This document shows, piece after piece, positions 4,902-36,479 of a stretch of DNA of 64,000 nt (the stretch's first letter is position 1; each line of letters begins with the position of its first letter). The DNA is from Chryseobacterium sp. GVT01B (GTDB taxonomy: Bacteria > Bacteroidota > Bacteroidia > Flavobacteriales > Weeksellaceae). The notes under the pieces were generated by a model. It saw nothing but the letters and a program-made list of their open reading frames with translations, did no database searches and had not been told where the DNA came from. The stretch is from assembly GCF_019970045.1 (NCBI RefSeq), contig NZ_JAHXYI010000002.1:434001-498000 (forward strand), given 5' to 3'. The translations under genes were made by a program, and so were the position numbers.

Positions 4902-4939
4902 CGATTGAATTACATTTCAATATACAATCAGTTTAATTC

Positions 4940-4965
4940 ACCTCCTGTATTTATGGGAGGTTTTT
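4940..4965 (+). terminator. Intrinsic terminator after the DUF1349 gene
   Basis: Hairpin ACCTCC / GGAGGT (inner part TGTATTTATG) followed by a T run. It lies about 40 bp after the stop at 4901. Confidence 0.7.
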
Positions 4966-5002
4966 GTATTTTTAAAAATTGATTTTTTGAATCGGAGAAT
5001 AA

Positions 5003-5040
5003 AAAAGAGGCCTCACTTTTAAGAAGCCTCTTTTGTTTTT
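5003..5040 (+). terminator. Second terminator-like hairpin
   Basis: Nine-base stem AAAAGAGGC / GCCTCTTTT with loop at about 5012-5025 and a following T-rich stretch. It sits behind the first terminator and could act on either strand. Confidence 0.6.
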
Positions 5041-5641
5041 GAGATAAAGCCGTTTGTGTTCTTAGAATCATTATTTATACAATAAATCTTCTTTATTCGT
5101 TGTGAAAATATTTTTGCAAAAATATGAATATTCATAAGCCTTGACAAAGATATCATGTAGAATTAACCTCAGTTTTTTGTCAAATTTTTACTACAAAAAG
5201 CAATTAAATCCAGCTAAAAACCGTTCATCAGGAAATCTTAAAAAAAACAGAAAAGCATCAATATTTATTATTTGCAAAATCCTAAAACCAATCACAAGTT
5301 CGGTACAGCACTGAGATTTATAGGAATATTTTCAAAATGAATACAGTATAAATTTATCACTTATTATTGAAATATCATAATATTTCTGAAAATTTCATGT
5401 ACCCTATCGTCTGCAAACCGGGATAAAACTTGTACAAAACAGATTTTAAGATACTGATTTATCGCCATAATTTCACTATTTTTACACAATCAAAAAATAT
5501 AAAACACAAAAGACCTGAAAACTTCAATGATAAAAATTTATTTTCAATCGTTCCTGCCCATTAAAAAAACATTGACTTGTACAAACATTATTAACCGTCT
5601 TTTGCATTAGTGCAGGAGATATAGATCAGTTTTGCACATAT
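5041..5641. other. Long intergenic region upstream of the sensor kinase
   Basis: About 600 bases without a convincing ORF. The last 45 bases contain TTTG at 5601-5604 and CAGTTTTG at 5627-5634, which resembles a Bacteroidota promoter placed only a few bases ahead of the kinase ATG. Nothing else structured was recognised. Confidence 0.5.
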
Positions 5642-9378: not shown

Positions 9379-10224
9379 TTAATATAACCTTTGCACAGAC
9401 AGAAACAATTCTCTTGTATTATCAGAGGTATTGGAGTCTGTAGTGGAAGCATTGCTACTTCCTGTAGTTGATTTGTTATCTACACGGAATGCATAATACA
9501 CTCTGTACCATCTTGGTTCCGGTTCCTGTATGGTAATATCAAAAGTAACAGTCTCATTATGAGTCTGGGTAAGATAAACACCATCATCAAACTGTCTGTA
9601 AGCTCCTGGTGATAATTTAATATTTCCGTTGTCAGAATCTCCTGTATGAGTGGACATTTCAGAAACCCATATCTTCACATCTGAAGTTCCCACATTATAA
9701 AGTCTTGGGTTAAAAGTTGTGGCTGCTCCTGTTCCTGCTGAGCTGCTGTCAAATTGGGCATCAAGTCTTAAAAAACCTCCCAATACAGGAAGATCAGAAA
9801 GATAGGTACTCGCTAAAGTATTTGTTCCAGAAGTACCTGCTGGTATACTTCCATGATAGTAAATTAAATCTCCAACAGTAATATCATCATCTTTCCCTCC
9901 AAAAGCAAACTTCCATGTTGTTCCGTTAAACATATAATATCCGGCTTTATCTACCTTTGCCGTCTTTGCAGAAGGTATAGTTACAGCTTGAGTCACATAC
10001 ACCAATGCTCCGGTTTGCGCCGCTAAATAGACATCATCTTTCGCCCTCAGCTGATCGCCCGTTACCCTGGGAGCCATTACACCATCAGGAACAGTTGTGA
10101 CATCCGGCTTACCTTCTACGTGTAATGTTACTTTAGGAGAATCTGTATTGATACCAACCTGAGAATACATAATAGTTGAAACACACATCATTATGCCAAT
10201 AAGAGGTAATTTTATTTTCTTCAT
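9379..10224 (-). CDS. Secreted protein of a Chryseobacterium surface family, unknown function
   Basis: The 281-residue protein has a signal peptide ending at MYSQ and then VGINTDSPKVTLHVEGKPD, an opening found in many flavobacterial secreted proteins and reminiscent of phage tail fibre or trimeric adhesin heads. A segment near residue 100 (GYYMFNGTTWKFAF) fits the same style. The C-terminal half is beta-rich (VTFDITIQEPEPRWYRVYYAFRVD). Similar openings occur in six other secreted proteins of this window. No T9SS sorting domain was recognised. Function is not known. Confidence 0.7.
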   Translation of the reverse strand: MKKIKLPLIGIMMCVSTIMYSQVGINTDSPKVTLHVEGKPDVTTVPDGVMAPRVTGDQLRAKDDVYLAAQTGALVYVTQAVTIPSAKTAKVDKAGYYMFNGTTWKFAFGGKDDDITVGDLIYYHGSIPAGTSGTNTLASTYLSDLPVLGGFLRLDAQFDSSSAGTGAATTFNPRLYNVGTSDVKIWVSEMSTHTGDSDNGNIKLSPGAYRQFDDGVYLTQTHNETVTFDITIQEPEPRWYRVYYAFRVDNKSTTGSSNASTTDSNTSDNTRELFLSVQRLY

Positions 10225-21807: not shown

Positions 21808-24111
21808 TTAAAGTGCATATTCTACGGAGGCTTCCTTAGCCGCTGCCACCATTGCTATCAAAGCTTTTTCGGTTTCTTCCCAGTGTCTTGTTTTCAATCC
21901 GCAGTCAGGATTTACCCAAAGCTGATTGGCCGGAATGACGTTCTGGGCTTTTCTCAACAATTCAATCATTTCTTCTTTGGACGGAACTCTTGGGGAATGG
22001 ATATCGTATACTCCCGGGCCGATTTCGTTCGGATATCTGAAGTCTGCAAAAGCATTCAGCAGTTCCATCTGAGAACGGGAACATTCTATGGTAATCACAT
22101 CTGCATCCATATCAGCAATATTTTCAATAATATCATTGAATTCCGAATAGCACATATGAGTATGAATCTGTGTAGCATCTTCCACTCCGCTTGCTGAAAT
22201 TCTGAAAGCTTCTACAGCCCATTTCAGGTAGTTCTGCCAGTCTGTTTTCCGTAATGGAAGCCCTTCTCTTATCGCAGGCTCATCAATCTGAATGATTCTG
22301 ATTCCGGCTTTTTCAAGATCCACAACCTCATCACGGATAGCCAGAGCAATTTGTTTACATGTCTCTGAACGAGGCTGATCGTCACGTACAAAAGACCATT
22401 GTAAAATTGTAACGGGGCCTGTAAGCATTCCTTTTACCCATTTTTCAGTCTGGGATTGTGCATATTGAGACCAATATACCGTCATCGGAGTTGGGCGGGA
22501 AACATCACCGAAGATTACAGGAGGTTTTACACAACGGCTTCCATAGCTCTGTACCCAGCCATTTTTCGTAAATACAAAGCCTTCCAGCTGTTCCCCGAAA
22601 TATTCCACCATATCGTTACGCTCGAATTCCCCGTGAACCAATACATCTATTCCTATTTCTTCCTGCCAGTTGATGGTTCTCTGGGTTTCTTCCTTCAGTA
22701 AAGTATCATACTGCTCTGCCGTAAGCTCTCCTTTCTTGAATTTTGCTCTCCAGCTTCTTACCTCCGTGGTCTGTGGAAATGACCCGATGGTTGTTGTTGG
22801 AAATAAAGGAAGCTGAAGGACTTTCTGCTGTTCTTCTTTACGGATTTTGAAGGTATTTGTTCTTTGTGCATCTTTTTCAGTAACAGCATTTGCTCTTTGC
22901 TTTACCTCATCGTTATGAATAAGCGAGGATGTTCTTCTGCTTGCAATTGCTTTTTTATTTTCTTCAAAAGAAGCAAGAATCTGCCCATTTTCTGTTCCTG
23001 ATACCAGTTCTTTAAGCGTTACAACTTCTGCCACTTTCTGTTTTGCAAAAGCCAGCCAGTTTTTAATTTCCGGATTAAGAGTGGTTTCAAAATCCAGATC
23101 ACACGGTGAATGAAGTAATGAAGAGGAAGGAGCGATTAAAACTCTTTCAGATCCCAATTTCTCAACTGCTTTTCTGATGAAAGACAAAGATTTTTCAAAA
23201 TCATTTTTCCAGATATTTCTTCCGTCAACTACTCCTAATGAAAGGCTTAAGCTTTCCGGAATACCATTCAGGATTTCATCCAACTGTTCCGGGTTTCTTA
23301 CAAGATCCAGGTGCAATACATTCACAGGTAGTGATGCCGCAAGTGATTCATTATCATTTAATCCTTCAAAATAAGTAGCCACAATGAATTTCAGTTTCGG
23401 GAAGCGTTTTCTTATTTCGGTGTAAACAAAATGATAGGTTTCTTTGGCTTTCTCCGTTAAATCCAACGCTAGAAAAGGTTCATCAAACTGAATCCATTCT
23501 GCTCCCTGCTCCTGAAGTTTGGTTAAAATTTCAATATATACGGAAAGAAGATTTCCAGCCAGATCCAGCTTATCAAATCCTTCTTCTTTTTCTTTTCCTA
23601 ATAGAAGGTAAGAAACCAGCCCGATGATTACCGGTTTTGCATTGATTCCCGCTTGTTTTGCTCCTGCAAATTCATTGAAAATTTTATCTGAACTCAGTTT
23701 AAACTGCTGATTTTTGTAAAACTCGGGAACGATATAGTGATAATTGGTATCAAACCATTTTGTCATTTCCATTGCAGTGATATCCAATCCTTCTTTCTGG
23801 TATCCTCTTGCCATAGCAAAGTAAAGATCCAGCTCAGAGTTGTTTTTTTTAAGCACTACTTCATGATAACGTGTAGGAATTGCTCCCACCACAAGGCTCA
23901 TATCCAATACCTGATCATAGTATGAAAAATCATTACATGGAATAAGGTCTATTCCTGCTTCTTTCTGAATGTTCCAGTTTTGGTTACAGATCGTGCTGCC
24001 TGTATTCAGAAGTTCTTCCGGAAGGATTTTACCTGACCAATATTGCTCGCAGGCTTTTTTGAGTTCTCTTTTGCTACCAATACGCGGATAGCCCAGAATG
24101 TGAGTTTGCAT
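21808..24111 (-). CDS. metE: Cobalamin-independent methionine synthase
   Basis: The 767-residue length is the usual one for MetE. It transfers a methyl group from 5-methyltetrahydropteroyl-triglutamate to homocysteine. The N-terminal half begins LGYPRIGSKRELKKACEQYWSG; the catalytic half shows TTIGSFPQTTEVR, LVHGEFERNDMVEYFGE, and the zinc ligands in IHTHMCYSEF (about 650) and VNPDCGLKTR (about 735). The leader contains a cobalamin riboswitch, so expression should fall when B12 is available and a B12-dependent MetH can work. A divergent Lrp-family gene lies upstream. Confidence 0.98.
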   Translation of the reverse strand: MQTHILGYPRIGSKRELKKACEQYWSGKILPEELLNTGSTICNQNWNIQKEAGIDLIPCNDFSYYDQVLDMSLVVGAIPTRYHEVVLKKNNSELDLYFAMARGYQKEGLDITAMEMTKWFDTNYHYIVPEFYKNQQFKLSSDKIFNEFAGAKQAGINAKPVIIGLVSYLLLGKEKEEGFDKLDLAGNLLSVYIEILTKLQEQGAEWIQFDEPFLALDLTEKAKETYHFVYTEIRKRFPKLKFIVATYFEGLNDNESLAASLPVNVLHLDLVRNPEQLDEILNGIPESLSLSLGVVDGRNIWKNDFEKSLSFIRKAVEKLGSERVLIAPSSSLLHSPCDLDFETTLNPEIKNWLAFAKQKVAEVVTLKELVSGTENGQILASFEENKKAIASRRTSSLIHNDEVKQRANAVTEKDAQRTNTFKIRKEEQQKVLQLPLFPTTTIGSFPQTTEVRSWRAKFKKGELTAEQYDTLLKEETQRTINWQEEIGIDVLVHGEFERNDMVEYFGEQLEGFVFTKNGWVQSYGSRCVKPPVIFGDVSRPTPMTVYWSQYAQSQTEKWVKGMLTGPVTILQWSFVRDDQPRSETCKQIALAIRDEVVDLEKAGIRIIQIDEPAIREGLPLRKTDWQNYLKWAVEAFRISASGVEDATQIHTHMCYSEFNDIIENIADMDADVITIECSRSQMELLNAFADFRYPNEIGPGVYDIHSPRVPSKEEMIELLRKAQNVIPANQLWVNPDCGLKTRHWEETEKALIAMVAAAKEASVEYAL

Positions 24112-24266: not shown

Positions 24267-24297
24267 AAGCTTCAGACCGCGAAAGCATTGTCAATTC
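24267..24297 (-). promoter_or_regulatory. Conserved expression-platform segment of the metE riboswitch
   Basis: Thirty of 31 bases are identical to 35234-35264, in the same position relative to the second cobalamin aptamer. The RNA contains GCTTT...AAGC pairing around CGCGGTCTG. Conservation outside the aptamer suggests it is the switching hairpin (the P13/L13-like element). Confidence 0.6.
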
Positions 24298-24300
24298 AGT

Positions 24301-24462
24301 AAAGGCAGGTCTCCTGACTTGTAACAGTTTCCGTCATCCTTCCCGCTTTTGGCAGTGGATATGCAAGGACAGAAACCTTTGGCATGTTACTTACAGTTGC
24401 GCGACAGCTCGTGATTCTCACACGATTCCCTATTAATCTACGCTAAGTAAAACCTTTCCTGT
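24301..24462 (-). ncRNA. Cobalamin (B12) riboswitch of metE
   Basis: On the minus strand the RNA carries AGGGAATCGTGTGAGAATCACGAGCTG-type P2/P3 core, TGTCGCGCAACTGTAAGTAA, GCATATCCACTGCC, GGGAAGGA and the 3' B12 box GTCAGGAGACCTGCC. These are the hallmark blocks of the cobalamin class. The aptamer ends about 190 bases before the metE ATG, leaving a leader with the switching element at 24267-24297. B12 binding is expected to repress metE. Confidence 0.95.
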
Positions 24463-24667
24463 TTGATGAAGTATCTCTAAAGAACTGTACTTTTAACGAT
24501 GACGATGATCATCATTAAAAGTTTTTAATTTTGTGTAAAATTAACAATACAGAATAAACACACAATCAAATACAATTAATTAAGCAAAATAATCTTTTAA
24601 AAACATCAATAAAAGCATATAATTCTGTACATTTGACTGTTTTTATAATCTAAAAGAATATTATTCT

Positions 24668-25129
24668 GTGGAACAACTTGATGATAAGGATGTACAGCTG
24701 CTGAGGCTGCTCCAGAAAAATGCAAAACTGACCGTTAAAGAGCTTGCAAAGGAAGTGAACCTCTCCACTTCACCGGTTTTTGAAAGGGTAAAAAGATTGG
24801 AACAGGAAGGGTTTGTGAAAAGATATGCTGCTGTTCTTGATGCTGAAAAGCTCAACCGTGGATTTACGGTTTTCTGTCAGATCAAGCTGAAAATTCACGA
24901 CAGATCTGTAGGCTATGACTTTGTGAAAGAAATTTTAGAAATTGAAGAAGTGGCGGAATGTTACAATATTTCCGGAGATTTTGATTTCCTTCTGAAAGTT
25001 CAGGTACGGGATATGAAACATTATCAGGATTTTGTGTTTAACAAACTGGGATCTGTAGATTCTATCGGGAGTACCCACAGTACATTTGTCATGGCTGAGG
25101 TAAAAAACAATCATGGACTGACTATTTAA
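24668..25129 (+). CDS. Lrp/AsnC-family transcriptional regulator
   Basis: The 153-residue protein has the N-terminal Lrp HTH (LDDKDVQLLRLLQKNAKLTVKELAKEVNLSTSPVFERVKRL) and the C-terminal RAM/AsnC ligand-binding domain (residues about 65-145, with VAECYNISGDFDFLLKVQ). It starts with GTG at 24668; no suitable ATG is in frame upstream. It sits between metE (divergent) and the valine/propionate operon (convergent), and Lrp-type regulators often respond to branched-chain amino acids, so either or both may be targets. Confidence 0.9.
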   Translation: MEQLDDKDVQLLRLLQKNAKLTVKELAKEVNLSTSPVFERVKRLEQEGFVKRYAAVLDAEKLNRGFTVFCQIKLKIHDRSVGYDFVKEILEIEEVAECYNISGDFDFLLKVQVRDMKHYQDFVFNKLGSVDSIGSTHSTFVMAEVKNNHGLTI

Positions 25130-25211: not shown

Positions 25212-25994
25212 TTAATTTCCTTTAAAGTCCGGGCTTCTTTTTTCTATGAATGCTCCGATGCCCTCATTGTGATCTTCTGTGGTAAATAATTCCCCAAATA
25301 AAGCGGCTTCCTGCTTCAATCCGTCTGTGATATGCAGTTCAAATCCGGTATTTAGCGACAGTTTCGCTTTTGCCACGGCCACAGGCCCTCTTGCAGCTAT
25401 TTTTTCTGCCAGTTTTTGGGCTTCGTTCAGTAATTCTTCGGGAGCGAAAACATGATTAACAAAACCAAAATCTTTACAGGCTTCCGCGGAATAAAATTCT
25501 CCGGAGAAAACCATTTCCCTTGCTTTGTATAATCCAATAGCTCTCGGAAGACGCTGGGTTCCGCCAAAACAAGGCAATAATCCTAATGTCACTTCAGGGA
25601 GTCCAAATTTTGCTTTTCCACTGGCAAGAATAATATCACAGGATAATGCAAGTTCGCAACCTCCTCCCAACGCAAAGCCATTTACAGCGGCTATCACCGC
25701 AAACGGAAGTTCTTCAATAGCGTTAAAAGCTGTCTGCGCAGCAATTGAAAACGCCTCTGCTTCTTCGGGAGTCATCTGCTGCATCGCTTTAATATCAGCC
25801 CCTGCAACAAAAGCTTTTTCTCCGGAACCGGTAATGATTAATACTCTGATATTTTTATCTGATTTTACCTGGTTAGCAAATGATTTCAGCTCCTGTAAAA
25901 CCTGTTCATTCAATGAATTTAAGGCCTGCGGACGGTTAATCGTCAGTGTTCCGATGTGACCGTTTTGTTGATATAGTAATGTTTCAAAAGTCAT
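25212..25994 (-). CDS. Enoyl-CoA hydratase (probable methacrylyl-CoA hydratase)
   Basis: The 260-residue crotonase has ITGSGEKAFVAGADIKAMQ (CoA/oxyanion site, about 55-73), ALGGGCELALSCDI (about 107-120) with one catalytic Glu, and PEVTLGLLPCFGGTQRLPRAIG with the second. A Cys replaces the Gly usual in the G-x-P-G-x-GGTQ loop. It hydrates enoyl-CoA to 3-hydroxyacyl-CoA. As the last gene of an operon for valine breakdown it most likely turns methacrylyl-CoA into 3-hydroxyisobutyryl-CoA. Confidence 0.9.
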   Translation of the reverse strand: MTFETLLYQQNGHIGTLTINRPQALNSLNEQVLQELKSFANQVKSDKNIRVLIITGSGEKAFVAGADIKAMQQMTPEEAEAFSIAAQTAFNAIEELPFAVIAAVNGFALGGGCELALSCDIILASGKAKFGLPEVTLGLLPCFGGTQRLPRAIGLYKAREMVFSGEFYSAEACKDFGFVNHVFAPEELLNEAQKLAEKIAARGPVAVAKAKLSLNTGFELHITDGLKQEAALFGELFTTEDHNEGIGAFIEKRSPDFKGN

Positions 25995-26061
25995 TTTTAG
26001 TTGATAGTTGAAAATTATTAAAAAGTGTTCACAGACAGTATTTTATATTCTGTTCAAATTT

Positions 26062-26946
26062 TTAAAGGTCTCTGTTTAGAAATTGAATAATACTTGAAAA
26101 GTCTGTTTTTCCGTTTCCTGATTCGCTCCACATTCTGTATAAATTCAATGCGGTATTACCGAGAGGTGTGGATGTTTTGGTTTCCAATCCCGCTTCTGCA
26201 GCAAGGCCCAGATCTTTTGTCATCAGGTCTACTGCAAAACCTCCGGAGTAATTACGGGAAGCCGGAGCATTTTCCATCACACCCGGATAAGGATTATACA
26301 CATCTAAAGACCAGTTTTTTCCGGAACTCTTCTGCATAATCTCACTTAAAATCTGAGGATTAAGACCATGTTTCACCCCAAGATTGATGGCTTCTGAAGT
26401 TCCGATCATATGAATGGCCAGCAGCATATTATTGCATATCTTGGCAACCTGTCCCGCCCCGGATTCTCCCGCATGGAATATATTCTGTCCCATACACTTG
26501 AGTATCGGCCGGGCTTTTTCATAGTCTTCCTGTTTACCACCAACAATAAAGGTGAGTGTCCCTGCCTGAGCTCCGGCAGTTCCTCCGGAAACAGGTGCAT
26601 CTATCATCCTGCAGCCTTTTGAAACAGCAAGTTCAGCAACTGTACGGGCTGTAACTGCATCAATAGTACTGCTGTCAATCAATAATGTGTTTGGTTTCAG
26701 ACTGCTTATAAACTCTTCTGAATAAAGATCAGCTACGTGTTTTCCTGAAGGCAGCATCGAAATCACAACATCTGCGCCCTTAGAGGCTTCTACAGCAGAT
26801 TCGGCAGTCTGCCCTCCTTCTGAAACCAGTATTTTCAAAGCTTCTTCTGAAAGATCAAAGCCTATCACATGATGACCTTTCTTGATCAGGTTAATGGCCA
26901 TTGGACCACCCATATTTCCTAATCCTATGAATGCTATATTTGACAT
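26062..26946 (-). CDS. mmsB: 3-hydroxyisobutyrate dehydrogenase
   Basis: The 294-residue protein has the beta-hydroxyacid dehydrogenase signatures: NAD site IAFIGLGNMGGPMAINLIKKGH at the N-terminus, substrate loop DAPVSGGTAGAQAGTLTFIVGG (about 117-138), and the catalytic lysine in GAGQVAKICNNMLLA (about 165-178). It oxidises 3-hydroxyisobutyrate to methylmalonate semialdehyde. Neighbours on both sides are other valine-pathway enzymes, which supports the substrate. Confidence 0.93.
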   Translation of the reverse strand: MSNIAFIGLGNMGGPMAINLIKKGHHVIGFDLSEEALKILVSEGGQTAESAVEASKGADVVISMLPSGKHVADLYSEEFISSLKPNTLLIDSSTIDAVTARTVAELAVSKGCRMIDAPVSGGTAGAQAGTLTFIVGGKQEDYEKARPILKCMGQNIFHAGESGAGQVAKICNNMLLAIHMIGTSEAINLGVKHGLNPQILSEIMQKSSGKNWSLDVYNPYPGVMENAPASRNYSGGFAVDLMTKDLGLAAEAGLETKTSTPLGNTALNLYRMWSESGNGKTDFSSIIQFLNRDL

Positions 26947-26999
26947 AATTTCTTAGTTTAAAGTTTAAAGTTTAAAGTTGAGCGTTCAAAGCGTAATAC

Positions 27000-28103
27000 T
27001 TAAATCTCCATTCTCAATTTTTCATTCTCCATTTTCAGTTCTTTAAAATAGGAATCTATCCATTCTTCTGTAATATCTTCCCATGTTGCGGGATGCCATT
27101 TCGGAGACATATCTTTGTCTACTAATAATGCTCTTACTCCTTCTGCAAAATCAGGGTGAATGCAGCATTGGCAGGATAGATTCAGTTCAGATTGAAAAAC
27201 CTCCTCAAGGCTTAAATCTTTACCTTGTTTCAGTTGTCTGAAAATAATGTGTGCTGAACTTGGAGATCCGGCTTCAAAGCTTTTCACACCGTTATTGATC
27301 CATTCATCTTTATCATTATCATTATAACTGATTAATATTTTCTTGAAATCTTCCAGAGAATCTACTCCTTCAAACTGTTTGATAAAAGGCTTATGTAATG
27401 CTGCCTGAGACTGAGGAATAATAATCTCTTTTGAAATATTTTCCAGGATATTAGAAACGGTTTTATGAGAGGTTCCATTCCAATCTGCCTGCTGAAGGGA
27501 ATTCAGAATAGTTTCTTTTGAAGAGGATTCTATATAATAATCTGCCAATCCTAAGAATTTACAATCTGCACCATCCAATCTTGCGCCTGTTAATCCTAAA
27601 TAAACGCCATAAGCAGAAGGCATTTTATTCAAAAACCAGGTTCCTCCTACATCAGGATACAGACCTATTGTAATTTCGGGCATTGCCAGTTTACTTTTTT
27701 CTGTAACGATGCGGTGTGAGGCACCCACCATCAGACCAATTCCACCTCCCATAACGATTCCGTGTCCCCAGACGATGACAGGTTTCGGATAGGTATGGAT
27801 GGCATAGTCTACCTCGTATTCTTTTGAGAAGAAGTCGAAACAATCCTGTGGAACTTTTGTACCGTCTATTGCACGCTGTGCAATAATAGCATCATGTAAT
27901 TTTCTCACATCCCCCCCTGCACATAGTGCTTTTTCTCCGGCTCCCTGAAGGAATATACAGGCTACTTCATCGGAGGTCTTCCACTCTTCCAAGACAGTTT
28001 TCAGTTCTTCTATCATTTCCAATGACAGCGAATTGAGAGTTTTCTCTGAATTCAGGGTAATAATTCCGACCTTATTTTTAATTTCTGTTATAATTACACT
28101 CAT
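27000..28103 (-). CDS. 3-hydroxyisobutyryl-CoA hydrolase
   Basis: The 367-residue crotonase-fold protein matches the hydrolase subgroup by length and by HGIVMGGGIGLMVGASHRIV and MPEITIGLYPDVGGTWFLNKMPS, with ALCAGGDVRKLHDA near residue 62. It hydrolyses 3-hydroxyisobutyryl-CoA to free 3-hydroxyisobutyrate and CoA. The last ten or so residues (KMENEKLRMEI) are encoded by sequence of the same type as the intergenic repeats of this operon, so the stop codon appears to have been displaced into a repeat. Confidence 0.9.
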   Translation of the reverse strand: MSVIITEIKNKVGIITLNSEKTLNSLSLEMIEELKTVLEEWKTSDEVACIFLQGAGEKALCAGGDVRKLHDAIIAQRAIDGTKVPQDCFDFFSKEYEVDYAIHTYPKPVIVWGHGIVMGGGIGLMVGASHRIVTEKSKLAMPEITIGLYPDVGGTWFLNKMPSAYGVYLGLTGARLDGADCKFLGLADYYIESSSKETILNSLQQADWNGTSHKTVSNILENISKEIIIPQSQAALHKPFIKQFEGVDSLEDFKKILISYNDNDKDEWINNGVKSFEAGSPSSAHIIFRQLKQGKDLSLEEVFQSELNLSCQCCIHPDFAEGVRALLVDKDMSPKWHPATWEDITEEWIDSYFKELKMENEKLRMEI

Positions 28104-28299
28104 GATATTTAATTAAAAATTGAGAGTTGAAAATTGAAATTTATTATTTAAAAGTTATCTAAACTTTATACAACCACAAAAGTCACAAAAGTTTTTATTT
28201 TAAAATACTTTAATTCCCTTAAGTAAGTTTAAAATGATGCCGCAGAAAAGCTCACATAAGATGAAAATCAAAGATTCTACAGTAATGAAAAATCTGTTA

Positions 28300-29460
28300 T
28301 CATCTTATTTGTAAAGTAGCTCCTTCTTCAAGGATCTTTCTTGAAATAACGAGTTTCATAATTTCATTAGTTCCTTCTACAACCTGATGTACTCTGGCAT
28401 CACGCATCAGCCTTTCTACCGGAAAATCCTGTGTACAGCCATAACCGCCTAAGATCTGCAGGGCCTCGTTGCAGATATTAAAGCTCATATCTGTAGCCAG
28501 TCTTTTCGCCATTGCACAATAAGTAGTGGCATTGGGATCTTTGGAATCAAGTTTGAATGCTGCCAATTGTACCATTTGACGGGCTGCAACCAGTTCTGTC
28601 ACCATATCTGCAATTTTAAACTGAAGAGATTGAAACTGGGCCAATGATTTCCCGAACTGCTGCCGCTCATGCATATAGCGCTGAGCCTGATTAATTGCTC
28701 CCTGTGCTGCTCCTACAGAACAGGTTCCAATGTTGATACGGCCTCCGTCCAATCCTTTCAGAGCGATTTTAAATCCTTCTCCTAATGTACCTAAAAGATA
28801 TTTTTCTTCTACCTCCACATGATCTAAAAATACAAAGCGGGTCGGCTGCGTATTCCAGCCCAGTTTTTTTTCTTTTTCTCCAAAACTGATTCCCGGAGTA
28901 TCGGCATGTACTACAAATGCACTGATTCCTTTGGTGCCGGATTCCCCCGTGCGGGCCATGACAATTAAAATATCACTTTCACCTGCTCCTGAGATAAATG
29001 CTTTGGTTCCGTTAATACTATACTTATTTCCTTTTTTTACAGCTGTCGTTTTCAAACCTGCTGCATCTGAGCCTGATCCTGGTTCGGTAAGACAATAAGA
29101 GCCCAGAAGTTTACCTGATGCCAGATCCGGACATAAGTCTTTTCTGATTTCATCATTTCCAAATTCATCGATCATCCATGAAACCATATTGTGTATGGTA
29201 ATATAGGCTGTAGTGGAAGGACAAGCGGCGGCTAATTCTTCAAATATAATGGCTGCATCCAGCCGTGATAATCCCAGCCCGCCGGCTTCTTCGCTGGTGT
29301 ATACACCGCAGAAACCCAATTCTCCGGCTTTACCAATAGCTTCTTTGGGAAATTTCTTTTCAGCATCCCATTCTGAAGCATATGGAAACAGCTCTTTTTC
29401 AGCAAACTTTCTCGCGGCATCCTGAAATGCCAGCTGGTCTTCATTGAGGTTAAACTCCAT
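28300..29460 (-). CDS. Acyl-CoA dehydrogenase (probable isobutyryl-CoA dehydrogenase)
   Basis: 386 residues from ATG 29460 (MEFNLNEDQLAFQDAARKFAE). An upstream in-frame start at 29529 would add a tail encoded by intergenic repeat sequence and is rejected. Motifs are YCLTEPGSGSDA (about 130), LGWNTQPTRFVFLDHV, and the C-terminal VHQVVEGTNEIMKLVISRKIL, where the Glu is the catalytic base typical of short-chain enzymes. It oxidises an acyl-CoA to the enoyl-CoA using FAD; in this operon isobutyryl-CoA to methacrylyl-CoA is the expected step. Confidence 0.92.
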   Translation of the reverse strand: MEFNLNEDQLAFQDAARKFAEKELFPYASEWDAEKKFPKEAIGKAGELGFCGVYTSEEAGGLGLSRLDAAIIFEELAAACPSTTAYITIHNMVSWMIDEFGNDEIRKDLCPDLASGKLLGSYCLTEPGSGSDAAGLKTTAVKKGNKYSINGTKAFISGAGESDILIVMARTGESGTKGISAFVVHADTPGISFGEKEKKLGWNTQPTRFVFLDHVEVEEKYLLGTLGEGFKIALKGLDGGRINIGTCSVGAAQGAINQAQRYMHERQQFGKSLAQFQSLQFKIADMVTELVAARQMVQLAAFKLDSKDPNATTYCAMAKRLATDMSFNICNEALQILGGYGCTQDFPVERLMRDARVHQVVEGTNEIMKLVISRKILEEGATLQIR

Positions 29461-29565
29461 AGTATTGAATTGAAAATTTATTTGAATTGAAAATTGAGAA
29501 TGAATAATCGAACGTAAAAATTGGATCATTGAGAATTACAATTATTTTCAATGACCTACCTTCTC

Positions 29566-31062
29566 TTATTTTAAGTTGATGGTCATGTTCACACTTCCTC
29601 CCGGCACATCTTCTTCAAACCAACGGGCTGTAATGGTCTTGGTTTCGGTGTAGAAACGAACGCCTTGTTTTCCGTAAGAATGCAGATCGCCAAAGAATGA
29701 TTTCCTCCATCCTGTAAAAGAGAAAAACGGTAGTGGAACAGGAATCGGAAGGTTAACTCCAATCTGCCCTACTTCAATTTCATGCTGGAATTTTCTTGCA
29801 GCAGCTCCGGAATTGGTGAAAATTGAGGTTCCGTTTCCGTATGGGTTTTCATTAATAATTCTGATCGCTTCATCTAAGGTTTCTGCTTTTAATAATAGCA
29901 ATGCCGGCCCGAAAATTTCTTCTTTGTAGATGTCCATATCCACAGAAACATTATTAAATAAGGTAGGTCCTACAAAATATCCGTTTTCATAGCCTTCTAC
30001 GGTACAGTTGCTTCCATCTAACAGAACTTCTGCTCCCTGATCGTAAGCACTTTTAATCAATCTTAACACTCTATCTTTGGATTGTCGATTGATTAACGGA
30101 CCAAACGCAGCAGACTCATCAGACCAAACTCCTGGTTTGATTGTACTTAAGGCCATTTTAATATCTCCTACCCAGTTTTGGGCCTCTCCTACTAATACTG
30201 CAACACTGATCGCCATACAACGCTGGCCTGCAGCACCACAGGAAGCTCCCACCAGATTATTAATTACCTGACTTTTATTAGCATCCGGCATGACCACCAT
30301 ATGATTTTTAGCACCGCCAAAAGCCTGAACTCTTTTCAAATTATCGGTTCCGGTACGGTAAACATGTTCTGCAACCGGTACAGAGCCTACAAATGAAATA
30401 GCTCTGATATCAGCATGATTCAAGATATGGTTTACCTGATCTTTGGTACCATGAACAATATTTAAAACACCTTTAGGAAAGCCTGCCTCCAAAAACAGCT
30501 CTGCCATTTTCATAGAGGTCATAGGAGTCTGCTCGGAAGGTTTTAAAATAAAGGTATTACCGCATGCTATCGCCATAGGAAACATCCACAAAGGAATCAT
30601 GGCCGGAAAGTTGAAAGGAGTAATTCCTGCACAGACCCCAAGAGGCTGAATGTAACTGTAAGTGTCTACTCCTCTTGCAACGTTCTCTACCGTTTCCCCC
30701 ATCATCAGAGTCGGAATATTACAGGCATGCTCTACGACTTCTATACCGCGCCAAACGTCTCCCATAGCATCTGCAAAGGTTTTTCCGTTTTCCCTGGAGA
30801 GAATTTCTGCAATTTCTTTTTGATGTTCTTTTAAAAGATGCTGGTATTTCAGAAATAATCTTGCTCTTTCGGGAGTGGCAACTTCTTTCCATATTTTGAA
30901 GGCTTCCGCGGCTGCTTCAATAGCTTCATCTATTTCAGATAATTCTGTGAGAGGAACTTCTACGAGGATCTCCTGTGAAGCAGGATTTTCTACAGGAAGA
31001 TAGTTTTTTGTTTTACTTTCTGTAAAATTTCCATTGATTAATATTTTTATTTTTTGTGACAT
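29566..31062 (-). CDS. mmsA: CoA-acylating methylmalonate-semialdehyde dehydrogenase
   Basis: The 498-residue protein has [50 protein letters not shown] in place of the usual LGGK-E motif (diagnostic for this CoA-dependent subgroup), and catalytic Cys in [14 protein letters not shown] (about 285). It converts methylmalonate semialdehyde, NAD and CoA to propionyl-CoA and CO2. Its product is the substrate for prpC two genes upstream in the same operon, linking valine breakdown to the methylcitrate cycle. Confidence 0.95.
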
Positions 31063-31109
31063 AGTTTTTAAATTAAAAATGGAGCATTGAAAGTTTTAAT
31101 CATAAAAAT

Positions 31110-31188
31110 TGAGAATGGAGAATTGATCATTTTCAAAAAAATATCGACTATTCATTAAAAACGTTGTGATATTCAATTCTCCATTTTC
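31110..31188. repeat. Inverted pair of intergenic GAGAATGGAGAATTGA-type repeats
   Basis: 31110-31125 and the complement of 31173-31188 differ at one base of 16. Related sequence is found in other gaps of this operon, near 27001-27040, 28113-28142 and 29463-29512, and in the arms at 25142/25187. Confidence 0.55.
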
Positions 31189-31197
31189 TTATTGATT

Positions 31198-32649
31198 TTA
31201 AATGACTAAAAGATCTACAAATTCATTGACGTTAAGATTCACTAAGGTGTCATATTCCAATGAATTTTCAAGAATTGTTCTTTGTTGTTTTTCCGGGAAA
31301 ATACGGGCAAGATTAACTTTATATTTCTTGATCAGTTCAGGAATACCTTCATCCCTTCTGCGTTTGTGCCCAATAGGATATTCTACCACTATTTCGTCTA
31401 AAACAGTTCCGTCATTAAGTTCTACCGTCATCGCATTTGCAATGGAGCGTTTTTCCGGATCGTGATAGTCTGCTGTAAACTGAACATCTTCCACACATTC
31501 AATTTTGTTACGAAGTACATCAATTCCTGGATCTGAAGCGATGTTATCTTCATAATCGGCAGCTGTCAGTCTTCCATAGATCAATGGTACAGCCACCATA
31601 TATTGAATGCAGTGATCACGGTCGGCAGGATTATTTAACGGTCCTTTTTTATCGATAATTCTAATTGCCGCTTCGTGGGTACGGATGGTAATTTTTTTGA
31701 TATCATTTGTTGTTTTTCCAAGGCCTCTTAAAGTTGCGTGTAATGTCATTGCGGCTTCCACTGCGGTCTGCGAGTGAAATTCTGCAGGGAAAGAAATTTT
31801 GAAAAGTACATTTTCCATTACGTAAGAACTGTATTCTCTCTGGAATTTGAATTCATTTCCTTTGAAAGAGACATCATAGAATCCCCATGTTTTTGCTGTC
31901 AATACAGATGGATAGCCCATTTCTCCTGTTTTTGCAATCAGTGCAAGACGTACCGCTCTTGAGGTAGCATCTCCTGCAGCCCATGATTTACGGGAACCTG
32001 TATTGGGAGCGTGGCGGTAAGTTCTTAAAGACTGTCCGTCCACAAAAGCCAGTGACACGGCATTGATAATTTCATCACGGTTCAATCCGATCAGCTTGCC
32101 TACTACAGCTGTAGAAGCGAGTTTTACCAATACAACGTGGTCCAGCCCTACTTTATTGAATGAATTTTCCAATGCCATTACCCCCTGAATTTCGTGAGCC
32201 ATGATCATTGCTTCCAGGACCTGTTTCATTTTTAAAGGAGCTTTTCCTTCTGCAATATTTGTTCTGGATAACCAGTCTGCAGTAGCTAAAATTCCTCCAA
32301 GGTTATCAGAAGGATGTCCCCATTCTGCTGCCAGCCATGTATCATTGAAATCCAGCCAGCGGATAATCGCACCGATATTGAATGCTGCCTGAATCGGGTC
32401 TAACTGGAATTGGGTACCCGGTACTTTTGCTCCGTTAGGAACTACCGTTCCTTTTACCACAGGTCCTAAAAGTTTCGTACATGCGGGGTAGGTCAATGCT
32501 TCCAGGCCACAGCCAATCGTATCCAGAAGACAGTAATGGGCCGTCTTCCATGCTAAGTCATTTTTAATTTCGTAGTTTAAGACATAGTCTGCAATGTCTG
32601 TTAATACCTGATCGGGTTGTGGTCTTTCGTTTGAGATGTGTGAACTCAT
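31198..32649 (-). CDS. prpD: 2-methylcitrate dehydratase (MmgE/PrpD family)
   Basis: The 483-residue length and content (DVLTDIADYVLNYEIKN-type start, WLDFNDTWLAAEWGHPSDNLGGILATADW, RTYRHAPNTGSRKSWAAGDATSRAV, KISFPAEFHSQTAVEAA) match the enterobacterial PrpD subgroup. It dehydrates 2-methylcitrate to 2-methyl-cis-aconitate. Rehydration to methylisocitrate would need an aconitase, since no acnD is in the operon. It lies 88 bp behind prpC. Confidence 0.93.
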   Translation of the reverse strand: MSSHISNERPQPDQVLTDIADYVLNYEIKNDLAWKTAHYCLLDTIGCGLEALTYPACTKLLGPVVKGTVVPNGAKVPGTQFQLDPIQAAFNIGAIIRWLDFNDTWLAAEWGHPSDNLGGILATADWLSRTNIAEGKAPLKMKQVLEAMIMAHEIQGVMALENSFNKVGLDHVVLVKLASTAVVGKLIGLNRDEIINAVSLAFVDGQSLRTYRHAPNTGSRKSWAAGDATSRAVRLALIAKTGEMGYPSVLTAKTWGFYDVSFKGNEFKFQREYSSYVMENVLFKISFPAEFHSQTAVEAAMTLHATLRGLGKTTNDIKKITIRTHEAAIRIIDKKGPLNNPADRDHCIQYMVAVPLIYGRLTAADYEDNIASDPGIDVLRNKIECVEDVQFTADYHDPEKRSIANAMTVELNDGTVLDEIVVEYPIGHKRRRDEGIPELIKKYKVNLARIFPEKQQRTILENSLEYDTLVNLNVNEFVDLLVI

Positions 32650-32737
32650 TTTTTTTATCGTTGAAAAATTTTAATTAATTAAAAAGTTAAGTGTAAAAAG
32701 TTGAAAATGAATTGTTTTTCCCATTTCCAACATTCTA

Positions 32738-33892
32738 TTATTTACGGTCGTTAATGGACACAAATTCTTTATTTTCTGGTCCTGTATAGTTGGCACTTGG
32801 ACGGATAATCTTTCCATCCTGTCTCTGTTCTATGATGTGAGCACTCCATCCGGTCACTCTTGAAATAACAAATAACGGGGTGAACATCAAGGTAGGAACT
32901 CCCATCAGATGATAAGAAACAGCGGAGAACCAATCGAGGTTCGGGAACATTTTCTTTTCTTCCCACATGATCGTTTCCAGTCTTTCAGCAATAGTATACA
33001 GCAGCATATCTCCTGCTTCTTCAGAAAGCTCTTTCGCCACTTTTTTAATCACAACGTTTCTCGGATCTGAAATGGTATACACCGGATGCCCGAATCCAAT
33101 AATCACTTCTTTGTTCGCAATACGCTGGCGGATATCGCTTTCTGCTTCATCCGGAGAATTGTATCGGCTTTGGATTTCAAAAGCCACTTCATTAGCTCCT
33201 CCATGTTTAGGTCCTCTCAAAGCACCAATCGCTCCGGTAATAGCAGAATAAATATCAGATCCTGTTCCGGCAATGACACGGCTGGTAAATGTTGAAGCAT
33301 TAAATTCATGTTCGGCATAAAGGTTTAACGAGATTTCCATTGCTTTTACCCAGGAATCTGCAGGTTTTTTCCCGTGCAGCAGGTGAAGAAAATGTCCTCC
33401 TATTGTATCATCATCGGTTTCTACGTCAATTTCTTTTCCATTATGAGTATAGTGGTACCAGTATAACAGACCAGAGCTGAAAGATGCCAGTAATTTGTCT
33501 GCAATATCCCTTGCTCCTGCCATATTATGATCGTCTTTTTCCGGCTGAATACTTCCGATAGCAGAAACCATGGAACGCATGACATCCATTGGATGAGCCG
33601 CTGCAGGAATACTCTTAAGAATGTTTCTCACGGAATGAGGCAGTCCCCTCAAAGATTTCAGTTTGGCTTTATAATTTTTCAATTGCGCTCCGGTAGGCAG
33701 CTGGCCATAGATCAAAAGATAGGCTACTTCTTCAAATTGTGCTTTCTCTGCCAGATCCAGAATATCATATCCTCTGTAATGGAGATCATTTCCACTTTTT
33801 CCGACACTGCAAAGCGCAGTATTACCTGCTGCTACCCCTGAAAGCGCAACGCTTTTTTTAGGTTTAAATGTGGGTTCACTGTTCGTTGACAT
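32738..33892 (-). CDS. prpC: 2-methylcitrate synthase
   Basis: 384 residues from ATG 33892; an in-frame TTG six bases upstream is unlikely. Citrate-synthase catalytic residues are visible in [11 protein letters not shown] (His, about 98), [15 protein letters not shown] (His, about 243) and [15 protein letters not shown] (Asp). The N-terminus with [27 protein letters not shown] is typical of methylcitrate rather than housekeeping citrate synthases. It condenses propionyl-CoA with oxaloacetate. The start lies 2 bases after the prpB stop, which suggests translational coupling. Confidence 0.95.
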
Positions 33893-33894
33893 TA

Positions 33895-34791
33895 TCAATT
33901 ATTTTGTTTAAAAAGGTTGTCTAATTTTTGTTCATAGTCGTAGTATCCAATGCTTTGATAGAGTTCTTCTCTGGTTTGCATGGTATCTAAGACATTCGCC
34001 TGTGTTCCGTCTTTGCGAAGGTGTTCATATACATTTCGAGCAGCTTTATTGGCTGCACGGAAAGCCGATAGCGGATAAAGAATTAATCCCACACCTGCAT
34101 TTTTTAATTCTTCCACGGTATACATTCTGATCATCCCGAATTCTGTAATATTAGCCAGCACAGGAATCCCTGTAACTTCAACAAATTTTTGGTAAAAACT
34201 TAAGTCAGGAACAGCTTCTGCAAAGATGAAATCTGCTCCTGCTTCTTTATAGGCTACCGCTCTTTCCAATGTTTTTTCCAATCCTTCATTGGCAAAAGCA
34301 TCAGTACGAGCACCAATTACAAAATTATCATCGGTACGGGCATCTGCAGCAGCTTTCAGTCTGTCTACCATTTCTTCTTTGGTTACCACTTCTTTTCCCG
34401 GGCGGTGTCCACAGCGCTTTGCACCTACCTGATCTTCAATATGCAGGGCCGCAGCACCAGCTTTAATCAGAGACTTTACGGTTCTTGCAACATTGAATGC
34501 TGAAGGCCCAAATCCGGTATCAACATCTACCATGAGCGGTACATCGCAAACATTCGTAATACGCTGAACATCAATCAATACATCTTCCAGCGTGGTAATC
34601 CCTAAATCCGGAATACCCAGAGAACCTGCAGCAACACCTCCTCCTGAAAGATAAATTGCATTGAAACCTGCATGCTGTGCCAACAGCGCATGATTGGCAT
34701 TAATGGCTCCAACAATCTGAAGGGGATTTTCTTTTCGCATGGCCTCCCGGAATTTCAAACCGGGAGACTTCAAACTTTCACTTGTAGTCAT
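33895..34791 (-). CDS. prpB: 2-methylisocitrate lyase
   Basis: The 298-residue protein shows the isocitrate-lyase superfamily motif [12 protein letters not shown] (about 125-136) with the catalytic Cys, the metal-binding VDVDTGFG and an N-terminal [27 protein letters not shown]. It splits methylisocitrate into pyruvate and succinate, the last step of the methylcitrate cycle. It is the first enzyme gene after a cobalamin riboswitch located about 480 bases upstream. Confidence 0.95.
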
Positions 34792-35017
34792 TATAATATT
34801 TATTGTTTAGTTGAAATTTGTCCACAGAAAGCCATGAATAGGCATAACAATGACCACTGCCATTCCATAAGGTGATGGTAAAAAGGAAATCAAAAGAAAG
34901 CTGATCTGTGTTATTCGTTTTTTGTAATTCGGAATTATACATCATTAATTCCCTACACACCTGTTTATCTCCAAGTCTGCTGCTCCTGCATAAATAATCG
35001 AAATCGAATGGGTACAT
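34778..35017 (-). CDS. Possible 79-codon leader ORF between riboswitch and prpB
   Basis: An open frame starting [15 protein letters not shown] and ending NNKYYNDYK. It overlaps the start of prpB by 14 bases. I recognise no family, and it may be chance. If translated, it would couple into prpB translation. A shorter frame ([11 protein letters not shown]) also ends just before prpB. Confidence 0.25.
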
Positions 35018-35233
35018 TTTTCTAACTTTTTATATTGATTAAATCCTCATAAAAAGTTCCTGGTAAGCTTCACAATGCCTGTGAGAAAGAAAAATATGGA
35101 AAAGGAAAATACGATGAATACATGATAATGAAAAGAGCATACTACTCCACTACTTATCTGTATCACAAAAATAACACGAGCCGACAAAATATATTGATCC
35201 CACTGTTATCCATATCGTATCATACCTGACTAT
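35018..35233 (-). other. Leader between B12 switching element and the first open frame
   Basis: About 215 bases of transcribed leader if the riboswitch drives the operon. No terminator with a T run was seen that would separate the riboswitch from prpB. Confidence 0.5.
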
Positions 35234-35264
35234 AAGCTTCAGACCGCGAAAGCATCGTCAATTC
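35234..35264 (-). promoter_or_regulatory. Conserved expression-platform segment of the second riboswitch
   Basis: Differs from the metE element at 24267-24297 by a single base in 31 and has the same spacing to the aptamer 3' end. Confidence 0.6.
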
Positions 35265-35270
35265 GAAATA

Positions 35271-35432
35271 GGCAGGTCTCCTGACTTGTAACAGTTTTTA
35301 TCGTCCTTCCCATATAGCTAGGTATACAGTGGACCTTTTTTGATAAAAACCTTGATGTTACTTACAGTTGCGCGACAGTTCGTGATTTGCACACGATTCC
35401 CTTTTAAGACACAGCTAAGTGTAACCAGTTTC
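35271..35432 (-). ncRNA. Cobalamin (B12) riboswitch of the prpBCD-valine operon
   Basis: The minus-strand RNA has AAGGGAATCGTGTGCAAATC, CTGTCGCGCAACTGTAAGTAA, GGGAAGGAC and the B12 box GTCAGGAGACCTGCC, in the same order and spacing as the metE riboswitch. The GTCCACTGTATACC segment replaces the GCATATCCACTGCC of metE. The next gene downstream on this strand is prpB, so the methylcitrate/valine operon is predicted to be repressed by B12. Confidence 0.93.
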
Positions 35433-35936
35433 GGTTGATAAAGAAGATGTTAAGAACTCCTTGGTGGTAAATATAAGTATTTTATAAAAACACGAAAGAT
35501 ATTTTATGCAAACAATAACTATTTAACCATAACACACTGGTTTTGTTATTATTAAAAATATTTTTTTTACTCAACAAACATTGTAATTTAGATTATTCTG
35601 CTCGTTCTTCGTTACTAAATTCTTAAGATATGTAGTAAAAAAATGAAACAACTTTAAAGAAACAACTTCCTTGTTGTCATTTTCCACCCTGGAATTGAAG
35701 TGTTTTTTTTAACAATTTTTTAAGGGATAGTGGATATTTATCTTTTGATATTAAATGATCTTTTTTATATCATTTTTTAGTCATCAATTTTAATTTTTAT
35801 TCTTCAATCCATTTTCTGAAAGCAGCTATATTTCTTTGTAATCAGAAGGGTTTTTCTGTACTTTATTTGGAATGAATGGATAGAAAAAATCCGCCAAAAA
35901 GTGACGGATTTTATAGGATTTGAAAGTTTGTTGAAA
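35433..35936. other. AT-rich region holding the upstream promoter of the riboswitch
   Basis: About 500 bases without a gene. Poly-T rich stretches near 35560 and 35700 are present. The promoter for the riboswitch transcript should lie around 35465-35530, but no exact TTTG/TAnnTTTG pair was found. Confidence 0.45.
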
Positions 35937-36479
35937 TTAATTGGCTGCCGGATCAATCAGTTCCGTGGTAAGTCCTAGAAATTTTAGCAGGTTTTTATTG
36001 TCAAAAAACAAGGTTGCATAATGTTTCCCTTTCTTAAAAATCAGTTTTGAACCTCCCGAAAATTCACTGTCTGCACCAAGTTTTTGCGTTTTAGCATTGT
36101 ATTTACTGAACTTGGTTTTGCTGTCCTGCAGTGTAGTTTTATTCATGATAAGACCAAATGGAAGTCCTTCTATCACTACGGGCTTATTATCAGAAATGGT
36201 AAAAAACATCTCATCAATCACATTGTTTTTCCCAAGGCCGCAATACAGTTCCAATCCTGTTTTTGTAGGCCATTTTGCATATTTTTCCTCGTTGGTATCT
36301 TCATAAAACACAGGTTTCATGTTCAATGCTTTTGATATTTTATCGGGAGTCTGCGGAAAAATAAATTCTGAATTTTTATCTAATAAAGAATTTAGAACTG
36401 CTGTTTTCTGTGAAAATGCCGTGATACTTACCAGTTGAAAAAAGAAAATTAAGATGAAAGTTAATGGTTTCGTCTTCAT
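35937..36479 (-). CDS. Secreted hypothetical protein
   Basis: The 180-residue product has a signal peptide (cleavage near SITAFSQ) followed by a mixed alpha/beta domain with LELYCGLGKNNVIDEMFFTISDNKP and LPFGLIMNKTTLQDSKTKF. It contains no lipobox Cys and no family I recognise. It is isolated from its neighbours. Confidence 0.65.
   Translation of the reverse strand: MKTKPLTFILIFFFQLVSITAFSQKTAVLNSLLDKNSEFIFPQTPDKISKALNMKPVFYEDTNEEKYAKWPTKTGLELYCGLGKNNVIDEMFFTISDNKPVVIEGLPFGLIMNKTTLQDSKTKFSKYNAKTQKLGADSEFSGGSKLIFKKGKHYATLFFDNKNLLKFLGLTTELIDPAAN

Follow-up and report, generated by a model that had tools for sequence, protein, structure and literature searches.

The window analysed here is a 64,000-nucleotide (nt) stretch of the genome of Chryseobacterium sp. 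GVT01B, and it contains a cobalamin (vitamin B12) riboswitch upstream of prpB, prpC and prpD, the genes of the methylcitrate cycle, which are followed on the same strand by genes of valine breakdown (Table 1). A cmscan search of the window returned two matches to the Rfam family RF00174, both on the minus strand. The match before prpB spans the full model (positions 1-189) and contains the B12 box and the conserved core, as seen in the consensus alignment and in the columns invariant over 17 riboswitches. A sequence-only reading of the locus had already placed a B12 aptamer at 35271-35432, which is the same element minus its ends, and the covariance-model search that it suggested recovered the element far above the gathering threshold. 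Gene calls, made with NCBIfam profiles and their curated cut-offs, bore out the gene order and strand given in that reading. The first gene 3' of the riboswitch, prpB, and after it prpC and prpD, all over cut-off, belong to a B12-independent alternative. Further downstream, the acyl-coenzyme A (CoA) dehydrogenase is probably, from its context, an isobutyryl-CoA dehydrogenase, and no second copy of mmsA or mmsB over cut-off was found in the genome.

Table 1. Features of the prpB and metE region, in window coordinates and in the direction of transcription.
Feature	Coordinates	Strand	Evidence
Promoter-like -7 element TATATTTA, just 5' of the aptamer	35468..35475	-	Present in 39/39 prpB leaders
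Cobalamin riboswitch aptamer (RF00174)	35254..35444	-	98.3 bits against a gathering threshold of 31.5; E 2.5e-23
P13 hairpin, L13 CGCGG at 35244-35248 complementary to L5; putative expression platform	35227..35260	-	Fold; joint change of L5 and L13
Long leader from P13 to prpB	34792..35226	-	No common promoter, no strong terminator
prpB, methylisocitrate lyase	33895..34791	-	TIGR02317 and NF008455 over cut-off
prpC, 2-methylcitrate synthase	32738..33898	-	NF009006 over cut-off
prpD, 2-methylcitrate dehydratase	31198..32649	-	TIGR02330 over cut-off
Hairpin with kept pairing between prpD and mmsA	31114..31185	-	Stem of 12-18 base pairs, 23/23 gaps
mmsA, methylmalonate-semialdehyde dehydrogenase	29566..31062	-	TIGR01722 over cut-off
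Acyl-CoA dehydrogenase	28300..29529	-	Superfamily match, no specific cut-off passed
3-hydroxyisobutyryl-CoA hydrolase	27000..28103	-	NF004127 over cut-off
mmsB, 3-hydroxyisobutyrate dehydrogenase	26062..26946	-	TIGR01692 over cut-off
Enoyl-CoA hydratase	25212..25994	-	Superfamily match, no specific cut-off passed
Second cobalamin riboswitch, upstream of metE, same P13/L13 as the prpB one	24287..24472	-	94.7 bits
metE, B12-independent methionine synthase	21808..24111	-	TIGR01371 over cut-off

The riboswitch before prpBCD is real, complete and conserved. Among 118 genomes of the genus, prpB was found over cut-off in 19, and a riboswitch lies upstream of it in all 19. A second set consisted of 80 named prpB loci, the best 80 of 152, with Chryseobacterium as the nearest named relatives; the two sets may overlap in species and their counts are not independent. 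Here the riboswitch stands on the coding strand before prpB in 21 loci, with its end 201-465 nt from the gene: all 17 titled Chryseobacterium, all three from Elizabethkingia, and Pedobacter cryoconitis M2T3 (L074). A motif scan returned the same 21 loci. Five of them (L050, L053, L057, L058 and L074) are among the 17 sequences behind our model R1 and match that model by construction. The survey of relatives proposed in the sequence-only reading thus finds the arrangement recurring, and its central observation, a B12 riboswitch ahead of the B12-free methylcitrate genes, stands with a conserved placement.

Directly 3' of the aptamer, folding of the window's leader gives the hairpin P13, whose loop L13, CGCG(G/A), complements loop L5 of the aptamer (UCGCG, at 35371-35375 in the window). 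We examined 62 distinct riboswitches for this pairing and could parse L5 in 59. A complement to L5 was found 3' of the aptamer in 56 of these, in 48 exactly or with one end wobble and in 8 only with a one-base bulge, against a background of 4.6% of random windows for an exact-or-wobble complement. By the exact, wobble or one-base-bulge rule, L153, L205 and L004 have no complement. Some bulged matches are lenient (L197, L094) and most exact ones come from close relatives and are not independent; the case rests on the exact matches together with the joint variants, in which loop and partner differ in step: UCCCG with CG(U)GGA (L083), UCCCCG with CGG(A)GGA (L002), UUGCG with CGCA (L199, L209) and UAGCG with CGCU (L203). 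The arms of the P13 stem, compared by eye, also vary together (GCTT/AAGC, ACTT/AAGT, GATTTG/CAAATC). Judged by these sequence patterns, the L5-L13 pairing is the kissing loop described for other corrinoid riboswitches (PMC10653944; this and the other papers are cited from extracts of their text).

The leader between the aptamer and prpB is long. In the window, 462 nt separate the aptamer end from the prpB start (34791) and 435 nt separate the end of P13 from it, while the aptamer-to-prpB distance is 322-465 nt in the 20 Chryseobacterium and Elizabethkingia loci and 201 nt in the Pedobacter locus. Bacteroidota promoters have a -7/-33 consensus, by which TATATTTA can be called promoter-like; it lies ahead of the aptamer in all 39 prpB leaders of Chryseobacterium and Elizabethkingia, and a two-box rule finds it together with a -33-like word in 18 of 21 leaders. 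Because the promoter-like element common to all 39 leaders, TATATTTA, lies upstream of the aptamer, transcription most likely starts before the aptamer. The sequence-only reading had named a terminator or a separate promoter between riboswitch and prpB as evidence that would count against it; neither a strong terminator nor a promoter-like element common to the relatives turned up there. At 34700-35950, a standard consensus scan gave no intrinsic terminator in the coding direction. A laxer scan gave weak terminator-like hairpins in 7 of 18 leaders, including two in the window's own. Only the window, L045, L046 and L050 have one in a comparable position, a weak hairpin with a T-rich stretch about 138 nt past the B12 box. 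An intrinsic terminator as the output step was set aside, as these hairpins are weak and similarly placed in four leaders only. A second promoter in the leader was likewise rejected: over the 21 leaders scanned, matches occurred in single leaders or in at most three close relatives, and none was general.

An open reading frame (ORF) of 11 codons (35221-35260) begins in the 5' arm of P13, and its product, MLSR(S/F)EAYSQ(V/A), is kept in 39/39 prpB leaders. These leaders represent 12 distinct 60-nt stretches, with both silent and non-silent changes. The structural element that contains the ATG is likewise conserved before metE, yet 3 of the 6 Chryseobacterium leaders of that gene have a broken frame; the conservation may therefore be that of the RNA, and we treat the ORF as a possible by-product of it. 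In the window, the stop codon of the ORF overlaps a second ATG (ATGA).

Five RF00174 riboswitches are present in the genome as a whole (5.15 Mb, 99.96% complete). One each precedes prpB, metE and a gene for a 4HBT thioesterase of 127 amino acids (aa), and the other two precede TonB-dependent receptors with DUF5074 neighbours. The genome also encodes a B12-dependent route for propionyl-CoA: the methylmalonyl-CoA mutase MutB (706 aa; NF006944, 1246 bits, over cut-off), a 387-aa relative of the mutase small subunit (below cut-off), IcmF with a MeaB-type GTPase domain (1115 aa), an epimerase (134.2 bits), and a carboxyltransferase recognized by its Pfam domain only (PF01039, 481.6 bits), a candidate carboxylase that may act on propionyl-CoA. 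The genome search for the mutase and metH suggested in the sequence-only reading therefore finds mutase, epimerase, candidate carboxylase and MetH, and the absence of any B12-dependent propionate enzyme, which would have spoken against that reading, is not what the genome presents. MetH is split over two ORFs (L132:2730-3740, 336 aa, and 4917-7577, 886 aa) with a 363-aa ORF between them. CbiC was not found in this genome but was found in 7 of 14 control genomes. Because CbiC is missing from the search results and B12-dependent enzymes are present, the bacterium probably takes up B12 from outside and is able to use it on propionyl-CoA. Methylmalonyl-CoA mutase was present in 60/60 genomes of the genus searched; set beside the count for prpB, the B12-dependent branch looks like the core of the genus and the methylcitrate cycle like an accessory.

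It is thus quite likely, as far as sequence can tell, that the riboswitch exerts B12-OFF control over prpBCD. An adenosylcobalamin-type riboswitch would turn prpBCD off when B12 is present and allow their expression when it is scarce. With B12, propionyl-CoA would pass through the carboxylase, the epimerase and the B12-dependent methylmalonyl-CoA mutase to succinyl-CoA; without it, the mutase route would stall, the riboswitch would release prpBCD, and propionyl-CoA would be converted to pyruvate and succinate. Binding of the ligand is predicted to hold the L5-L13 kissing loop and the P13 hairpin in place. The effect of P13 on prpB, 435 nt further on, is a matter of guesses, among them Rho-type termination or lost translation of the short leader ORF. 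The same B12-shortage regulon is suggested to include metE and the 4HBT acyl-CoA thioesterase, which might free CoA from stalled propionyl- and methylmalonyl-CoA.

Several observations weigh against B12-OFF control of prpBCD or limit its reach. P13 lies clear of the prpB start and ribosome-binding site and no strong terminator was found in the leader, so that the output step is missing, and the bare fold favoured a rival pairing over P13 in two of three leaders folded alone. In 59 of the 80 loci, among them 4/4 Myroides loci with the prp-valine gene order, no intact riboswitch is directed at prpB, and the pathway can therefore do without B12 control. One of the 59, a second P. cryoconitis locus (L062), carries a riboswitch remnant at about 9694-9796, with its middle deleted and a score below the Rfam threshold; some of the other 58 have a riboswitch directed at metE (L071, L075, L083, L094, L113) or at another target (L084), and none has one directed at prpB. 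An 18.1-bit match in L170 was ignored. All Chryseobacterium and Elizabethkingia cases may represent one inherited event. In Xylanibacter ruminicola, a rumen member of Bacteroidota, none of the four predicted cobalamin riboswitches lies near genes of the propionate pathway, there the succinate pathway, according to the extract available (PMC11575231). Nor is the OFF direction certain, because an activating corrinoid riboswitch, that of A. halodurans cobT, is in print (PMC10653944). This precedent would allow B12 to raise prpBCD and valine breakdown together, and so would the position of mmsA and mmsB, which have no other copy over cut-off, 3' of the riboswitch, since valine breakdown through methylmalonyl-CoA mutase would need both in the presence of B12. 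We nevertheless regard activation as highly improbable: the same platform stands before metE, whose riboswitches repress in the cases described (PMC10924821, PMC9600662), prpBCD constitute the B12-free branch, and no strong terminator overlaps P13. The length of the leader invites a different explanation, in which the riboswitch controls only a short transcript or the leader ORF and prpB is expressed mainly from another start or through a propionate-responsive regulator. The 462-nt gap, the ORF kept in every prpB leader, the promoter-like matches confined to one leader or to a handful of close relatives, and the weak hairpin with its T-rich stretch in the window, L045, L046 and L050 would all fit. 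Against this, no promoter-like element 3' of the aptamer is common to more than a few of the 21 leaders, the ORF may owe its conservation to the RNA, as the metE leaders with a broken frame suggest, and the gap length is kept over two genera; we consider this explanation unlikely.

Closer to the balance is the extent of the controlled unit. The sequence-only reading had proposed that all eight genes, from prpB to the enoyl-CoA hydratase, form one B12-repressed valine-to-methylcitrate operon. Its order and strand hold: all genes lie on the same strand, the valine genes follow prpBCD in 15/17 Chryseobacterium, 3/3 Elizabethkingia and 4/4 Myroides loci, and inspection by eye revealed no promoter-like element between prpD and mmsA. 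Shared control is doubtful. In the gap between these two genes, an inverted repeat of 12-18 base pairs, with G-U pairs allowed, was found in 23/23 cases, namely the window and every one of the 22 loci, out of the 80, in which both genes are present (Chryseobacterium, Elizabethkingia and Myroides). Shuffled gaps gave means of 5.7-9.2, and the stem exceeded all 30 shuffles in 21 of the 23 (exceptions L045 and L047). Its letters are quite different between species while the pairing is kept, that is, they covary, and the hairpin could be a terminator, a processing site or a stability element. In addition, riboswitch and valine genes each occur without the other: two Chryseobacterium loci (L058, L060) keep riboswitch-prpBCD with no valine genes within the 10-kb flank, and the four Myroides loci keep the prp-valine order without a riboswitch. 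Since L058 and L060 lack the valine genes and keep the riboswitch, it is tied more closely to prpBCD than to the valine genes. Finally, if the valine genes were under B12-OFF control, the only mmsA and mmsB over cut-off would be shut in the presence of B12 and valine breakdown would be hampered, which also counts against extending B12-OFF control beyond prpBCD. We see about an even chance that the valine genes downstream of the hairpin are controlled jointly with prpBCD, and the single eight-gene operon falls marginally short of that.

The second RF00174 match in the window lies directly upstream of metE and was absent from the sequence-only reading. A gene of AsnC/Lrp type (24668-25129, plus strand) is located between the enoyl-CoA hydratase gene and this riboswitch. 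An AsnC/Lrp-family gene of the same length adjoins metE in Pedobacter L074 (by Pfam), and one does so in Mucilaginibacter L113 by its sequence start only. Within the flanks, metE neighbours prpBCD in 7 of the 80 loci (L071, L074, L075, L083, L094, L113 and L118); in L074 the order is riboswitch-prpBCD-thioesterase and then metE. A further metE-type riboswitch, 10.2-10.8 kb on, stands at the flank edge, complete in five Chryseobacterium loci and cut off in L054. A tree of 34 aptamers, which has several long branches, sets the prpB and metE riboswitches apart from the Chryseobacterium thioesterase and receptor riboswitches (98/100), with the L197 thioesterase riboswitch placed on the metE side of the tree. 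The prpB riboswitch of Pedobacter groups with metE ones (95/95) and may represent a second origin, although a single grouping of all prpB riboswitches was not rejected by the tree test (p-AU 0.105).

The thioesterase widens the picture. It is a hot-dog 4HBT protein (PF03061) whose named solved relatives are acyl-CoA hydrolases and thioesterases. In the window's genome, its gene (L011:11206-11589) has the highest-scoring of the five riboswitches (C32:206707-206886, 116.6 bits). The thioesterase was found in 116/116 genomes of the genus at E 0.001, two of them without a close full-length copy (G021 partial, G090 E 1.9e-22). A B12 box lies about 145-152 nt upstream of it in all 30 Chryseobacterium loci fetched, which were the best matches, and model R1 confirms the riboswitch in 29/29 loci scanned. 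At E 1e-30, the thioesterase is present in 23 of 198 genomes of the class, 21 of them outside the genus. Eight of these 21, belonging to eight families by their labels, have a cobalamin riboswitch over the Rfam threshold upstream on the same strand, with the thioesterase in the riboswitch-led unit. It stands directly behind the riboswitch in L193 and L197, after a TonB receptor in L191 and after metE in L195; in the rest it accompanies nrdB and nrdA, with the order nrdB-thioesterase-nrdA in L199 (AdoCbl-II), L203 and L209 and nrdB-nrdA-thioesterase in L205. Judged informally from five riboswitches in a 5.15-Mb genome, eight of 21 would be very unlikely to arise by chance, but the query was taken from a gene that had already been seen behind riboswitches. 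The other 13 genomes have no riboswitch over the Rfam threshold in the flanks examined, and four of them share a genus label with a positive (G209, G273 and G303 with G128; G229 with G155), which speaks against the link. In L207, R1 gives a match of 41.7 bits directly upstream of the thioesterase; it is below Rfam gathering and was left out of the count, which is therefore eight and not nine. In Pedobacter L074, a 60%-identical thioesterase is the fourth gene of the riboswitch-prpBCD unit, the only close copy in the 80 prpB loci.

From this company, the thioesterase may hydrolyse propionyl- or methylmalonyl-CoA, a role least obvious beside nrdBA. We tentatively suggest that Bacteroidota possess an unreported B12-shortage regulon in which riboswitches control the methylcitrate cycle and a dedicated thioesterase discharging the propionyl- and methylmalonyl-CoA that would accumulate with a cofactor-less mutase, the thioesterase having repeatedly moved under riboswitches (with metE, nrdBA, a TonB receptor or prpBCD); this proposal is somewhat more likely to fail than to hold. 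The fate of propionyl-CoA is the third core B12 step with a B12-free bypass, and if the proposal is true, one RNA sensor class covers all three B12 choices. The thioesterase link would also attach a testable function to a gene that is assigned here to a fold family only, and hints at how bacteria that import B12 might keep their CoA from being trapped during B12 shortage.

The riboswitch itself is of a known kind; the novelty lies in its targets, namely the methylcitrate cycle and, more broadly supported, the thioesterase. In open PMC papers, so far as their extracts go, no report of a cobalamin riboswitch before prpBCD or this thioesterase was found, supplements and subscription papers lying outside this scope, and where text was examined, open-literature co-mentions of "cobalamin riboswitch" and "thioesterase" were incidental. 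A 2013 comparative survey sorts cobalamin regulons into B12 synthesis, B12 and cobalt transport, and isozymes of B12-dependent enzymes; its main text contains neither "propion" nor "mutase", its supplements being outside the scope (PMC3766115). In favour of B12 control here, genes adjoining the predicted cobalamin riboswitches of X. ruminicola are among the most B12-responsive (PMC11575231).

Among described systems, the mutA riboswitch of Veillonella parvula is a corrinoid riboswitch that the name of its gene links to propionate metabolism (PMC9600662), but mutA is by its name the B12-dependent mutase gene, whereas here the B12-free branch is concerned. The ppe2 riboswitch of Mycobacterium tuberculosis acts through a short upstream ORF (PMC12713380) and is a possible model for the 11-codon ORF, with the difference that the ppe2 upstream ORF has a stop overlapping the target start and prpB lies about 400 nt beyond the ORF here. 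In the same organism, prpDC and metE lie in one cluster and both fall with B12 by RNA-seq, quantitative PCR and proteomics; there it is metE that carries the riboswitch, and the extract of that study gives PrpR as the transcription factor of prpDC and names no riboswitch on prp (PMC10924821). Several B12-free alternatives, metE and nrdD among them, are known to be preceded by B12 riboswitches (PMC8620254), and the metE riboswitches of M. tuberculosis and Priestia megaterium come closest to the present one, with the same aptamer family, a kissing loop and repression of a B12-independent alternative (PMC10924821, PMC10653944, PMC9600662). Compared with them, the prpB riboswitch has a long leader with no overlap of the ribosome-binding site and no strong terminator detected, and its target is a bypass pathway rather than an isozyme.

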